Source: a virus. Taken from it: DNA of 42,061 nt. Both the position numbers and the translations under genes were made by a program. Positions within the stretch are counted from its first letter, which is position 1. Each line of letters starts with the position of its first letter. The DNA lies in IMG/VR virus record IMGVR_UViG_3300008116_000303, positions 1-42,061 of that record; one strand, given 5' to 3'. The notes beneath the pieces are model-generated. The model saw only the letters and a list, made by a program, of their open reading frames with translations, was not told where the DNA came from and did not search any database. Of the stretch, positions 18,070 through 29,684 are shown piece by piece.

Positions 18070-18085
18070 AGTTTATTTTTTTTAG

Positions 18086-18167
18086 TGCCCCATAAGAGAC
18101 TCGAACTCTTATACCTTGCGGCACCAGATCCTAAGTCTGGCGTGTCTACCAATTTCACCAACGGGGC
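18086..18167 (-). tRNA. tRNA-Leu(UAG)
   Basis: 82 nt. Acceptor GCCCCGT pairs with ATGGGGC, the discriminator is A, and U8 is present. The D arm GGTGAAATTGGTAGACAC is Leu-like. Anticodon stem/loop CCAGA-CTTAGGA-TCTGG gives anticodon TAG (complement of 18131-18133). There is a variable arm, and the T arm is AAGAG-TTCGAGT-CTCTT. CCA is not encoded. Confidence 0.93.
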
Positions 18168-18172
18168 TATAG

Positions 18173-18243
18173 TTGCGGGGCCTAGAGTCGAACTAGGATT
18201 TCTGGGTTATGAGCCCAATGTGCTACCGTTACACCACCCCGCG
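18173..18243 (-). tRNA. Initiator-type tRNA-Met(CAU)
   Basis: 71 nt. With U8 placed correctly, the acceptor is CGCGGGG/CCCCGCA, so the first pair is C1:A72, the mismatch that marks bacterial initiator tRNA. The anticodon stem TTGGG-CTCATAA-CCCAG has the three consecutive G:C pairs next to the loop that initiators require. The discriminator is A. The 11:24 pair is U:A, not the A:U usual for initiators. The D stem is GTGT/GCAC and the T arm CCTAG-TTCGACT-CTAGG. CCA is not encoded. Confidence 0.85.
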
Positions 18244-18256
18244 ATAATTATTTAAG

Positions 18257-18351
18257 CTGTAGGGGGAGGATTTGAACCTCCAAATGAGCAGGGACTCCCC
18301 GCTCCCGCCTCCGAGACTGGGAGGTGCGTCTGCCAATTTCGCCACCCTACA
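18257..18351 (-). tRNA. Aberrant type II tRNA, positional anticodon GUC
   Basis: 95 nt. Acceptor TGTAGGG/CCCTACA is perfect, U8 and G9 are present, and the D arm GGCGAAATTGGCAGACGC is Leu-like. There is a long variable arm (GAGCGGG...CCCTGCTC) and a T arm GGAGG-TTCAAAT-CCTCC. The anticodon stem CCTCC/GGAGG is perfect, but its loop CAGTCTC lacks U33 (A instead) and puts GTC, an Asp anticodon, in a Leu/Ser-class body. The discriminator is G. It abuts the next gene (stop side at 18352). Decoding and charging identity are uncertain. Confidence 0.7.
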
Positions 18352-22609: not shown

Positions 22610-22909
22610 ATGGCAAAAGTTAAAGTAAAAGTTCTGAAAGTTTCAGACAAGACCACAAACGGTAATTTCATTCACACTCTGAAAACAGACGGTGAAACAA
22701 TCAAAGTCCTTGGACAGGATATGGTTGGTAACGGATTAACTTACTATGCAGCACTTAAAGGTGCAGCAAAAGTAGGTACCGAAGAAATCGTAGACCTATC
22801 TAGGTTTGACGTTGTGGAAAGACCTTATGAAGTTACAGACGAAGAGTCTGGCGAACTTCGTACGCTCATGTTGAAATGGCTCTATCCAAAGAGACCAAGT
22901 TCAAACTAA
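22610..22909 (+). CDS. Small beta-rich protein, first gene of plus arm
   Basis: 99 aa, starting MAKVKVKVLKVSDKTTNGNF. Alternating hydrophobic strands (FIHTLKTDGETIKVLGQDMV) and a basic end (LMLKWLYPKRPSSN) suggest a compact beta barrel, possibly OB-like, which would suit a single-stranded nucleic-acid binder; this is inference. It is followed at once by a terminator, so it is a single-gene transcript with a structured leader. That layout, plus its codon-rich Lys/Val composition, suggests high early expression. Confidence 0.72.
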   Translation: MAKVKVKVLKVSDKTTNGNFIHTLKTDGETIKVLGQDMVGNGLTYYAALKGAAKVGTEEIVDLSRFDVVERPYEVTDEESGELRTLMLKWLYPKRPSSN

Positions 22910-22914
22910 TTAAA

Positions 22915-22939
22915 GGCGGGACGCAAGTCCCCCTTTTTT
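22915..22939 (+). terminator. Rho-independent terminator
   Basis: GGCGGGAC-GCAA-GTCCCCC followed by six T, directly after the stop of the 99-aa gene. The stem has a GNRA tetraloop. Confidence 0.88.
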
Positions 22940-23008
22940 ACTTTCCCTTTTGATTGTCAATCAGTCAATCAGCATTCTTAATCATTTATAAACCAAACAT
23001 CCCTAATC

Positions 23009-23158
23009 ATGAAAAGATCTAAACGCCTCATGTTCCCATCTTGGGACTTCTTTAAAGCCTGGTATCTATCTATGAAAGACAGATTCTCCAAGCTTACTCT
23101 TAATCTTGTCCGCTATATCAGTGGCTCACACCACGTAAGAGTAGAGATAAGCTATTAA
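23009..23158 (+). CDS. Small basic protein, 49 aa
   Basis: ATG at 23009, TAA at 23156-23158. It reads MKRSKRLMFPSWDFFKAWYL and ends HVRVEISY. It is rich in Lys/Arg and aromatics with an amphipathic middle, so nucleic-acid or membrane association is possible. It lies between two terminators, preceded by a leader (ATCATTTATAAACCAAACAT) without a Shine-Dalgarno box, and immediately upstream of the large structured RNA. Function unknown. Confidence 0.6.
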   Translation: MKRSKRLMFPSWDFFKAWYLSMKDRFSKLTLNLVRYISGSHHVRVEISY

Positions 23159-23183
23159 GAGCGTTATAACTCGTTGATAATCA

Positions 23184-23219
23184 GGTGTGTCTGTGTGGTA
23201 GTTCAACAGACACCCTTTT
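23184..23219 (+). terminator. Terminator-like hairpin after 49-aa gene
   Basis: GTGTCTG 23187-23193 pairs with CAGACAC 23207-23213, followed by CCTTTTCTTATCCTTTT. A second small hairpin AAGTAC/GTACTT (23231-23236 with 23250-23255) follows. These either end the upstream transcript or form the first hairpins of the large RNA. Confidence 0.55.
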
Positions 23220-23220
23220 C

Positions 23221-24000
23221 TTATCCTTTTAAGTACTCTGTATTCCAAAGTACTTTTGCCGCGGATGAGATAGCTATAACTCATTATCCCTGGAGAATAG
23301 GCTATGTAGGAACCACAGTTAACGTTCATATTGTCTGATGTATCAGAAACGTTCTGCCTCTTACCTATTCTTACGGATATACAGACAGGGGGAGCAGTCT
23401 ATAAAAGGGCTCCCACCAATAATACTTTCTCCGAGTAATACACTATCGGTTGCAAACGGTGTGTATCATAAACCTACTGTCTCTTTGAAGACAGCTTGAT
23501 TAACCACCTAGTACGTGGAGGGGCTTGGAGAGAGTATTCAATGACATGCATGAGTTCCTATGTCTAATAGTCAATTAGGAGATGAAAACGTCCACCTACA
23601 CTATTAGCACCTCTTGAAGGTTAGGAACATGCATGTTTTATACTTGTCGGGTGTATATAACCGTCTTGTGTGTACCAATTGTACATCTCTTTCCGAGCTT
23701 CCTGGTTGTTAGGCTATAAAGAGTATTGTAACCAGGTTTCTGTTGGGCCACAGATACAGCCTACGGACAGTCGTCTTTATGACGGTTGCAAACGGTAGAC
23801 ATAGAGATGACTTCTGTTATCCTCTATGATGGAGAGATGTCTGGACCGCAAGGTCAGATCGGACAGCCTCAATGATATCATAGACCAAGGTATAAGATTT
23901 TTCTTATTATCTTATTATGTACCATTATGTATCCATTAGCCAAGCTGTATAGCTGGCAGTTTTCAACCCAAGCCTTGAGCAAGCTGGGCCATTTTACATA
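23221..24000 (+). ncRNA. Large ornate structured RNA (~780 nt)
   Basis: No coding frame of note, but many perfect helices. Domain A: AATACTTTCTCC 23421-23432 pairs 12 bp with GGAGAGAGTATT 23527-23538 and encloses hairpins 23438-23466, 23477-23494 and 23504-23518. Domain B: ACATGCAT+GTTCCTA 23544-23560 pairs with TAGGAAC+ATGCATGT 23622-23636 and encloses CTAATAGT/ACTATTAG. Domain C: ACATCTCT 23683-23690 pairs with AGAGATGT 23833-23840 and encloses CCTGGTT/AACCAGG, CGTC/GACG and CATAGAG/CTCTATG. More: GGGAGC/GCTCCC 23390-23414, AACGTT/AACGTT 23321-23353 with CTGA-TGTA-TCAG inside, GACC-GCAA-GGTC 23844-23855, and CCCA...TGGG 23967-23988. A 14-nt element CGGTTGCAAACGGT occurs twice. Compare with the GOLLD and ROOL giant RNA classes. 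Confidence 0.75.
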
Positions 24001-24022
24001 AACTACAAGCTCTCTTTACTAA

Positions 24023-24039
24023 TTATTAACCACCTAAAT
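24023..24039 (+). promoter_or_regulatory. Repeated leader motif before 24049 gene
   Basis: TTATTAACCACCTAAAT, 9 nt before the ATG. It is one of at least four copies in the window, counting the variants before the genes at 25597, 11166 (minus) and 7165 (minus). Confidence 0.45.
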
Positions 24040-24048
24040 ACTCAAAAC

Positions 24049-24237
24049 ATGAAGTATCTAATCAGCATTTTGTTACTCTCCATAGCCTTCATACCCTTTT
24101 TGCTATGGTTCTCTCTTGTTTATTTATGGACCTTTGATCCCACGCCAGTCAGACAACTTTGTCATGATTTTAGTGAGACCATAGAGTCTAACTACCGCAA
24201 AGCATTTCGTAGAAAACCTAAACGTAGAACCTTTTAA
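24049..24237 (+). CDS. Small single-pass membrane protein
   Basis: 62 aa. Residues ~3-29 form one hydrophobic helix (LISILLLSIAFIPFLLWFSL), followed by a soluble part ending in a strongly basic tail (RKAFRRKPKRRTF). By the positive-inside rule the C-terminus should be cytoplasmic. It precedes a second membrane protein, a secreted metalloprotease and a lipoprotein, which together look like an envelope-directed cassette. Function unknown; holin-like or superinfection-exclusion roles are possible but unsupported. Confidence 0.72.
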   Translation: MKYLISILLLSIAFIPFLLWFSLVYLWTFDPTPVRQLCHDFSETIESNYRKAFRRKPKRRTF

Positions 24238-24550: not shown

Positions 24551-25162
24551 ATGAAAAAGATATATTTCACAGCTGTTTTACTGGTATCTGTACTGATACT
24601 TATTAGCGTCCAAGCAATGAATATAACCCAAACAATCTATATTCAACCGCTTGGCAAGGTTAAATTCGAGTATCTAACAGCAGTAAAACGTTCATTAGAG
24701 TCTTTTTATAAGGTAAAATGTGTAATCATGAGTCAAATAGATCCAACCGAAGATGTTATATCTAAACCTAGAAGACGTATTGATGCCTCTATGGCACTTA
24801 ATAAGTACAATTCTAGCAATCACACCATCATTGTGACTGAACGAGATATATCACACTTTAAATCAGTCTCTCAACCAGACTGGGGCATCTTTGGCCTTGC
24901 TACTAAACCTGGTAAAATAGCAATAGTATCAAGTTATAGATTACATAACCCTGATAAAAAACTCATAATCACTAGATTACAAAAGATAGCTATCCACGAA
25001 CTTGGTCATAATCTTGGTCTTGCTCACTGTAATAAAGATATCAAATGCTTGATGTCAGCAGCTGGCGGGACAATAAAACAAGTAGATCAAGAAGATATAT
25101 ACTTCTGTACATCTTGTAAAAGAAACCTCATTCATTCAACCTTATTAAATCTTGAAAGATGA
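24551..25162 (+). CDS. Secreted archaemetzincin-type zinc metalloprotease
   Basis: 203 aa. An N-terminal hydrophobic segment (residues 5-22, TAVLLVSVLILISVQAM) is a likely signal peptide or anchor. The zinc site HELGHNLGLAHC (149-160) is followed by C166, M168 and C186-T-S-C189, which reproduces the archaemetzincin signature HExxHxxGxxHC-x5-C-x-M-x17-CxxC. FGLATKPGKIAIVSSYRL upstream is also typical of the family. Catalytic E150 is intact. The enzyme would act in the periplasm or at the outer surface. It overlaps the lipoprotein gene by 4 nt (ATGA). Confidence 0.88.
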   Translation: MKKIYFTAVLLVSVLILISVQAMNITQTIYIQPLGKVKFEYLTAVKRSLESFYKVKCVIMSQIDPTEDVISKPRRRIDASMALNKYNSSNHTIIVTERDISHFKSVSQPDWGIFGLATKPGKIAIVSSYRLHNPDKKLIITRLQKIAIHELGHNLGLAHCNKDIKCLMSAAGGTIKQVDQEDIYFCTSCKRNLIHSTLLNLER

Positions 25163-25323
25163 AATCATCAAAAGATCTCACGCCTTCACAAGTAATACTA
25201 ATCATGATTATATTCATGAGTATACTGTCTGGGCTTACCAGTTGTTCTTCTACCAGAAACGGCTATGGCTGTAAAGGTAAAGAATCATGGGAAAAACTAG
25301 TTAGAAGGATAAATAGTCCTTAA
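25159..25323 (+). CDS. Small lipoprotein, 54 aa
   Basis: ATG at 25159 inside the ATGA overlap with the protease stop; TAA at 25321-25323. It reads MKSSKDLTPSQVILIMIIFM, then a lipobox-like LTSC (Cys29), then CSSTRNGYGCKGKESWEKLV. The mature part is only ~26 residues. Small lipoproteins with a GYGC-type motif occur in Bacteroidota genomes. Translational coupling with the protease suggests joint action at the envelope, for example targeting, inhibition or immunity; this is inference. Confidence 0.7.
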   Translation: MKSSKDLTPSQVILIMIIFMSILSGLTSCSSTRNGYGCKGKESWEKLVRRINSP

Positions 25324-25353
25324 ACAGGGTGTTTAATGGTTAAGTAAAGCAAG

Positions 25354-25383
25354 CCCGCTGACGTAACGTTGGCGGGTTTTTTT
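25354..25383 (+). terminator. Rho-independent terminator
   Basis: GCCCGCTGACGTAACGTTGGCGGG forms a nearly perfect stem followed by seven T. It ends the envelope cassette transcript. Confidence 0.92.
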
Positions 25384-25415
25384 CTCTATTTTTTTATCTT
25401 TAAATATAATTCCAC

Positions 25416-25562
25416 ATGGAAAAAACTCTAATCATGGGTAAAAGACATACCCTAAAATTTATTAAGAACACTATATTCTTTGGTTTCAGTTATGATAAAC
25501 CAAAGCTATACTTAGTATTCTTCTGCTTTATAATAGAATTAGACTTTCGTAAAAGCAAATAA
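25416..25562 (+). CDS. Small basic protein, 48 aa
   Basis: ATG at 25416 (an alternative ATG at 25434), TAA at 25560-25562. Reads MEKTLIMGKRHTLKFIKNTI and ends FCFIIELDFRKSK. Its strand-like, aromatic C-terminal half resembles that of the 51-aa protein at 28811 (both alternate F/Y/L/I and end with a charged tail). Function unknown. It follows a terminator, so it needs its own promoter. Confidence 0.55.
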   Translation: MEKTLIMGKRHTLKFIKNTIFFGFSYDKPKLYLVFFCFIIELDFRKSK

Positions 25563-25596
25563 GTTTTAATATTTCTAACCACCTAAATTCATTAAC

Positions 25597-26007
25597 GTGA
25601 AAACATTTCAGATTTCTCTAAATGGTATGGACCCTAGTAAGGTGTACATCCAACAAAAACGCTATGCAAACGGAAGAGTTCGTTTAGATCTATTAGATCT
25701 TATGGATGGTTTTCCTCACAGTATAGCAACAGTAAACTTACCAGATGTACTTCTGGAAGACAATGAGATTCTTGTAAAAGACTACTCAGAAAATGAAGGC
25801 ATGCTTGATTTCCTTACAGCAAACAATATTGTAATCCCAACAGATAAGGGAGTACATTCAGGTTTTGTATGGATACCAGTATGTAAATTAAATCCTGAAT
25901 CTGAGTGGGGATATGATCAAAGAGACTATCTTGATTATGTTATAGAAAAACATAACAAAGAACAAGAAGGTCTTGACGCAGTCATGTCTCAGTATGATCC
26001 GTCTTAA
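25597..26007 (+). CDS. Protein of unknown function (GTG start)
   Basis: 136 aa, start GTG 25597 placed 9 nt after the leader motif TTCTAACCACCTAAAT (25573-25588), which supports this start. The protein is beta-rich at first (KVYIQQKRYANGRVRLDLLD), acidic in the middle (DVLLEDNEILVKDYSENEGM) and helical at the end (RDYLDYVIEKHNKEQEGLDA). No family or catalytic motif recognised. The leader it shares with other genes suggests co-regulated early expression. Confidence 0.72.
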   Translation: MKTFQISLNGMDPSKVYIQQKRYANGRVRLDLLDLMDGFPHSIATVNLPDVLLEDNEILVKDYSENEGMLDFLTANNIVIPTDKGVHSGFVWIPVCKLNPESEWGYDQRDYLDYVIEKHNKEQEGLDAVMSQYDPS

Positions 26008-27200: not shown

Positions 27201-27204
27201 ACTC

Positions 27205-27452
27205 GGTGAAGCTAGCGGCAGCTAGTATGGGCATGCTCATGCTCTAATCTTGAAAACAGGAATTGATCAACCATGAGCTACTACAGATGATATGGCTGTC
27301 GTGAGGGGGGCTTACGAAAAAGACTGCTGCTTTGATTAAGTTCATATTAGTCAGTTTGTCAGAGTAGTAAATAAAACACCGACACTAGCAGCTTAGCTGA
27401 CTAGAATTAGGAAACACCAACCACAATCAGTACGTCAAGCTGATTATTTTTT
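27205..27452 (+). ncRNA. Structured small RNA with terminator
   Basis: A non-coding stretch of ~250 nt. Helices: CTAGC-GGCA-GCTAG 27212-27225; GCTCATG 27235-27241 with CATGAGC 27272-27278; GCTGCT 27326-27331 with AGCAGC 27387-27392; TAGTCAG 27348-27354 with CTGACTA 27397-27403; TGTC/GACA 27357-27384. The GCTGCT and TAGTCAG helices interleave, which is a pseudoknot arrangement. It ends in a terminator, AATCAG 27425-27430 with CTGATT 27440-27445, followed by ATTTTTT, 18 nt before the next start codon. A discrete RNA gene is therefore likelier than a simple leader. Confidence 0.6.
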
Positions 27453-27470
27453 AACCTTAATTCATTAAAC

Positions 27471-28972: not shown

Positions 28973-29653
28973 GGGGGTGCCTGGTTTTGACAGACATGTA
29001 GAGAGTTAGTAAACATGCGGACCTTTGGTAGAAGTGGTCCTTAAATAAACTGCAAACGATAAACGGCAAGACACAGTCTGACCGTGTAGCAGAAGGAGAA
29101 GCTATCTTGGCTTCTATCTTCGGTGAAGTAGCAGTAGCTGCCTAACCCTACGGGGGATCTATCCCTGGCAACAGAAAATAGTAAACTGACATGCCTTAAG
29201 GTTGGAACCCTGGATAGGCCCAGGAGAAAGGAGCTATAAACAGAGTTAGCCTTCGCATTAAGAACTACGTTCCCAAAGCGTAAATCTTTCCAGTTGCTCC
29301 CGACATGTCAACGAATAGACAGAGTCCTATGATGGTAGTTTACTACCGGATACTTATGGCGTGCTGATATTCAAAACCGCTCCGCACTGGAAGTTAGAAT
29401 AGTTATAAAAGGTTCTAACGAAGGGAGGATAAAAAGCAGCCTAATGATATTAAGAGCTATGCTCCCAAAATCACGAACCATCCTCCAGTACTCCCGAGCA
29501 ACAACTAAAACTGAAGTTGTAAATAGACAGTTAACTCTACGGTGCAGGCTGTCACAATTCTTCAAAGATTTGTGACATATCAGTACTAAGCATGTGATAC
29601 GTTTTACTTTCTTGTCTCTTGTTTGGACGCGGGTTCGACTCCCGCCACCTCCA
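28973..29653 (+). ncRNA. ssrA: tmRNA (transfer-messenger RNA), expanded
   Basis: 681 nt against ~350-400 usual. The acceptor GGGGGTG pairs with CACCTCC, with G3:U70 for alanylation and discriminator A. T arm GCGGG-TTCGACT-CCCGC. P2 is ACATGC 29013-29018 with GCATGT 29590-29595, and PK1 includes GGACC/GGTCC 29019-29040. The tag frame probably resumes at GGC 29065 (start GKTQSDRV) and ends GEVAVAA-TAA at 29143-29145, giving 26 codons; resuming at GCA 29052 would give ANDKRQDTV instead. Between tag and P2, a ~100-nt pseudoknot unit appears twice (29225-29322 and 29420-29530). It would rescue stalled ribosomes and tag products for proteolysis. Confidence 0.92.
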
Positions 29654-29684
29654 CTGCCTCATATGGCAAGCAAGCAATCGTTAA

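Follow-up and report, generated by a model that had tools for sequence, protein, structure and literature searches.

Separable structured RNA modules behind a conserved leader in a phage genome, with a palindromic loop as candidate site of self-association

The window examined here is a stretch of 42,061 nucleotides, bases 1–42061 of an IMG/VR virus record (IMGVR_UViG_3300008116_000303) that totals 65,470 bases; the phage comes from uncultured samples. Its large terminase is ~25% identical to the terminases of crAss-like and Flavobacterium phages, suggesting that the host is likely to belong to the Bacteroidota. The phage context assigned when the DNA was first read from its letters alone (the sequence-only reading) was right. 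Large genes run leftward to the left of ~22.4 kb and rightward to the right of ~22.6 kb. The RNA region, which is intergenic and lies between co-directional small genes, had been described as the longest non-coding stretch. It does fall in the longest ORF gap, 22,910–24,048. A conserved 49-aa ORF (for which a Pfam search gave no match) occupies part of the beginning of this gap, however, leaving about 23,184–24,016 as strictly non-coding. The features of the region are as follows.

22918–22938, + strand: terminator-like hairpin and T-run of the 99-aa gene at 22610–22909, dividing that gene from the RNA region
23009–23158, + strand: 49-aa ORF (MKRSKRLMFPSWDFFKAW...), kept upstream of the leader in many relatives, with a translated relative in L186
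23184–23280, + strand: leader, consisting of a hairpin (23184–23214) and a conserved box, GCGGATGAGATAGCTATAAC (23261–23280); common to many relatives, whatever the cargo
23285–23390, + strand: module B, a structured RNA of ~106 nt
23390–23414, + strand: C1 hairpin, GGGAGC/GCUCCC, from sequence comparison
23421–23538, + strand: module C2, ~120 nt, a multi-hairpin domain closed by a 12-bp helix
23450–23455, + strand: UUGCAA palindrome in the C2 loop CGG-UUGCAA-ACGG
23544–23636, + strand: C3 hairpin domain, from the predicted fold, closed by a 9-bp helix (23544–23552 with 23628–23636)
23640–24016, + strand: module D, a structured RNA of ~375 nt, from homologues and covariation
23763–23817, + strand: P6 helix of D, 17–18 bp (23763–23781 with 23800–23817)
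23786–23791, + strand: UUGCAA palindrome in the P6 loop of D, a candidate self-kissing loop
23844–23855, + strand: GNRA-capped hairpin of D, GACC-GCAA-GGUC

Several other features of the window may be recorded. The RNA lies two small genes upstream of a gene for a peptidase of family M54 (archaemetzincin-like; 24551–25162, + strand, E 4e-15). Three tandem tRNA genes, Leu(tag), Met(cat) and Asp(gtc), are found on the − strand at 18085–18351, ~5 kb from the RNA region. A phage tmRNA match (28973–29656, + strand, 64.3 bits) spans 684 nt against a model of 374 positions, indicating ~300 nt of extra sequence, and tmRNA matches likewise occur in the related records G002, G004, G010 and G020. Two mostly intergenic stretches of the + strand also fold better than shuffled sequence: 25320–25600 (z −4.2), which includes a strong terminator-like hairpin, and 27201–27470 (z −2.4).

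The sequence-only reading took the region to be one RNA of ~780 nt occupying 23221–24000. It is not one indivisible RNA of that size but a train of separable modules, B, C2 and D, behind a conserved leader, and each of these three modules at least is found separately elsewhere. The limits required adjustment: the RNA modules begin near 23,285 and D extends to about 24,016, while 23,184–23,280 is the shared leader. Besides a near-identical phage (L003/L015; 99.8% identity), module D is present in three divergent relatives, with identities over its length of 78% (L012), 76% (L186) and 75% (L124/L185). L012 is without the middle ~260 nt (C1–C3), giving the order leader–B–D; in L124 D directly follows the leader; and in L186 it comes after a small ORF plus ~270 nt of different sequence. 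Module B is carried, with neither C2 nor D, by L110/L112, L188, L189 and L190, and C2, with neither B nor D, by L158 and L184. In L184 C2 is again preceded by C1, with an A-U pair in place of a G-C pair. C3 is present in the window and near-identical phages only; it is missing from L012, L184 and L158, and no divergent homologues of it were found.

Homologues were sought by scanning viral contigs with exact patterns; one such scan, with GGTTGCAAACGGT...GACAT, returned mostly chance matches but pointed to L012. A covariance-model search of 48–50 records for further copies of B or D found none beyond those known. Among the cultured phages searched there was no real DNA relative of the RNA region, and an exact-pattern search of GTDB genomes for B and D gave no match, arguing against prophage copies at that sensitivity.

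The cargo behind the leader (the hairpin plus GCGGATNANATNGCTATAA) varies widely among relatives. In some it is a small ORF (L158, L186, L032, L068, L089), in others a different structured-looking stretch (L110, L115, L037, L119, L061). Since the modules occur separately, and since cargo differs behind the same leader, the locus appears to be a slot in which RNA cassettes are exchanged, not the site of a single giant RNA.

Other recurrent elements were observed in these contigs. One structured element, AAUGC-ACCA/GUCA ... UUCCCAAGG ... CAGNUGUA ... UACANCUGA ... GCAGAGGG, is present in ten distinct copies, carried by L037, L118 (two copies), L119, L158, L110, L048, L106 and L154; the three loci scanned against Rfam (L037, L118, L158) gave no match. 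A second, ending in ...AGAAGCGGGGUA...GGAUAUAAUGCGAAGUGAAACC... and often followed by a T-run, is found in the cargo regions of L037, L052, L105, L109, L115 and L118; neither L037 nor L118 gave an Rfam match for it. In the cargo regions of L115 and L119 a GTCACCAAA-type motif is repeated a short way upstream of several small-gene start codons, where it might serve as a shared leader or promoter.

Placed as they are between co-directional small genes, the modules might instead be cis-acting elements in the 5' or 3' UTRs of those genes (attenuators, ribosome-site controls or processing signals), with no free RNA acting in trans. Two arrangements in relatives are consistent with this: the leader directly precedes ORF cargo in L158 and L143, and in L189/L190 a T-run and a gene come immediately after module B. 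However, relatives differ in the genes that follow D and B while the modules stay constant, D far exceeds most cis elements in size and elaboration, and the upstream gene has a terminator-like hairpin of its own. A role purely in cis is thus a possible but rather unlikely explanation. The leader box was also considered as a promoter, which is doubtful because a start codon immediately follows the box in both L158 and L143.

The evidence for structure is most extensive in module D. A structure built by hand on the window was scored on a MAFFT alignment of five sequences, a comparison that rests on four distinct lineages and on fragmentary contigs. Over its 70 pairs, 91.6% of cells are paired, and double compensatory changes are found at 16 pairs (29 cells). 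None of 500 shuffles reached this covariation score, although such shuffles ignore relatedness and the structure is partly derived from the window itself. When the 3' partners were slid by 1–3 columns as a control, pairing was 34–42% and only 0–5 pairs were doubly changed. In module B, compared across six sequences, 9 of 32 pairs are doubly changed. Covariation among homologues, proposed at the outset as a check, is therefore found in both modules.

Individual helices were largely as first described. The 12-bp helix closing a multi-hairpin domain is that of C2, in which AAUACUUUCUCC (23421–23432) pairs with GGAGAGAGUAUU (23527–23538). A 15-bp bulged helix had been listed; it is present, as P6 of module D, but is really 17–18 bp long. 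P6 has this length in all four lineages, being conserved through compensatory changes, and pairing its two strands from the same lineage usually, but not invariably, gives a more stable helix than mixing strands between lineages. The 8-bp closing helix of the same list has a possible counterpart in the 9-bp helix that closes C3. The GNRA-capped hairpin is likewise present, with the loop GCAA in the window and GUAA in the other carriers of D. The whole of D is closed by a helix GAGCUU/AAGCUC (23695–23700 with 24007–24012) and is followed by a U-rich tail.

The stretch 23160–24010 has a folding energy of −264.8 kcal/mol, whereas shuffled versions average −221.7 kcal/mol (z = −6.15, from 20 shuffles only). 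The impression that the stretch is packed with helices is thus borne out, both by folding better than shuffles and by pairing kept in divergent relatives. By part, z is −4.7 for B to C3 and −2.2 for D alone, and covariation, not folding energy, is the main evidence for the structure of D. The reverse strand folds equally well (z = −6.4), so energy alone cannot choose between the strands. Among the cells of module D there are 20 G.U pairs and 5 A.C cells, an excess which favours the + strand as the RNA strand, with the proviso that the helices were chosen on the + sense.

The equal folding of the two strands would also be expected if the structure acted as DNA, for example as an origin of replication, or as a site of cassette recombination or packaging that forms hairpins in single strands. 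The position near the point at which gene directions diverge, and the swapping of cargo at a fixed point behind the leader, are compatible with such a role. Against it, the preponderance of G.U over A.C is that expected of a + strand RNA, GNRA loops are kept, and the modules are also present at other places in other phages. A function of the structure as DNA is accordingly regarded as improbable.

The modules do not fall into a known family. A search of 22,900–24,100 against Rfam 15 at E<=10 gave three sub-threshold, chance-like matches, none of them to GOLLD, ROOL, OLE or HEARO, the four models that had been suggested for comparison. No description of modules B, C2 or D was found in the open-access papers searched. 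B, C2 and D are previously undescribed and belong to no convincing Rfam family; the initial judgement that the RNA was uncharacterised and could be placed in neither GOLLD nor ROOL stands.

GOLLD merits closer comparison. It forms a homo-oligomeric cage (a 14-mer) and is typically located near tRNA genes. Like the window RNA it is a large ornate RNA of phages, and it has a conserved 3' and a variable 5' part, much as D is retained where B and C vary in their presence, a likeness confined to overall build. The palindromic loop of GOLLD switches its central GC/CG, and a loop of D does likewise, probably in one event. A highly diverged GOLLD (or ROOL), in which D would be the 3' domain and B–C3 the variable 5' domain, could account for these likenesses, for the similar size and for the phage context, the more so as relatives bear GOLLD downstream of the same leader (~1.4–2.4 kb, in five contigs whose positions were compared). 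The GOLLD covariance model (RF02032; 416 positions, curated cut-off 150 bits) nevertheless finds nothing at 23.2–24.0 kb at E<=10, in B, C2 or D, yet detects divergent GOLLD in ten related contigs (L197, L198, L199, L200 and L214–L219); nine score 81–112 bits and the tenth 54 bits, every one under the cut-off but with E 1e-15 to 1e-32. In the reciprocal test, a covariance model of P5–P7 of D was significant in the four D-bearing records only and gave nothing at GOLLD loci. The helices and sequence of D are different, with a helix order unlike the Rfam GOLLD consensus, and D is smaller and can stand as a module where B and C are missing. For ROOL, also a large structured RNA of phages, the model (RF03087) matched neither the window nor any of 14 relatives, but gave 213 and 265 bits in two control phages. 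OLE and HEARO are large ornate bacterial RNAs, and OLE forms dimers and contains a loop whose palindrome switches; the window RNA differs in having no Rfam match to either at E<=10. Membership of GOLLD or ROOL is rejected by the covariance models (in both directions for GOLLD) and is considered very improbable. The suggestion of a divergent Bacteroidota member of these classes is thus not supported for the window RNA, though true divergent GOLLD is present in its close relatives.

GOLLD itself looks under-annotated in Bacteroidota-type phages. The copy in L200 adjoins a tRNA. Mutual exclusion of D and GOLLD was considered and set aside: no overlap was seen between 4 D and 10 GOLLD contigs, which is not significant.

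An overlooked or degraded protein-coding stretch is rejected and has a negligible probability: short ORFs of 53–67 aa overlap the 5' part, but no ORF of at least 50 aa lies entirely within 23,500–24,048, and indels of 1–2 nt among D homologues break reading frames while the helices are kept. The + strand of 23,285–24,016 is non-coding and structured, and the window RNA joins two properties of large structured non-coding RNAs of phages in general, absence of coding and structure backed by covariation.

The loop that caps P6, ACGGUUGCAAACGGUAGA, bears on how module D might work. At its centre the window, L003 and L012 have UUGCAA, where L124 and L186 have CUCGAG; the two differ by four changes, through which perfect self-complementarity is kept. 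The swap is probably one evolutionary event, and the chance of a palindrome is 1 in 64 for any 6-mer. The two bases in the middle (GC or CG) stand next to each other, which precludes their pairing inside a single chain, and in computed comparisons each version of the loop pairs more favourably with its own kind than with the alternative version. Changes of adjacent palindrome bases in OLE L9.3 and GOLLD L21a have been taken as evidence for intermolecular loop–loop contacts (Kretsch et al., PMC12286853). By this analogy with OLE and GOLLD, the palindrome kept through change suggests, with moderate weight, that D self-associates via its P6 loop. As the same UUGCAA loop occurs in C2, the loops of C2 and D could also pair with each other in the window phage.

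Conserved structure, modularity, cargo swapping and a palindrome kept through change are thus direct observations, and they can be joined in a single reading in which transcription, action in trans and self-association are conjectured. The conserved leader would be followed by a hypervariable cargo slot carrying the module train B, C2, D, transcribed from the + strand. Module D would be a self-contained RNA of ~375 nt, probably acting in trans, and its copies would probably pair through the 6-nt palindrome of the P6 loop; in the window phage this loop perhaps also pairs with the same palindrome in C2. Such pairing would resemble the use that GOLLD makes of its own, unrelated loops. The chances that this reading is correct as a whole are judged to be about even. 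A bolder version, tentative and rather doubtful, is that D represents a new class unrelated to GOLLD and ROOL which independently homo-oligomerises, possibly into cages, via palindromic kissing loops, and that its phages exchange RNA modules of this kind as cassettes in a dedicated slot where some relatives carry genes, with GOLLD just beyond.

To our knowledge, giant ornate phage RNAs are few in number. An additional class, unrelated and smaller, occurring in close relatives of phages that bear GOLLD, would provide a way to ask what such RNAs share. The presence of separable modules in one swap slot suggests that ornate RNAs may be buildable from exchangeable pieces, and the loop with the swapped palindrome offers a direct mutate-and-restore test of RNA self-assembly.
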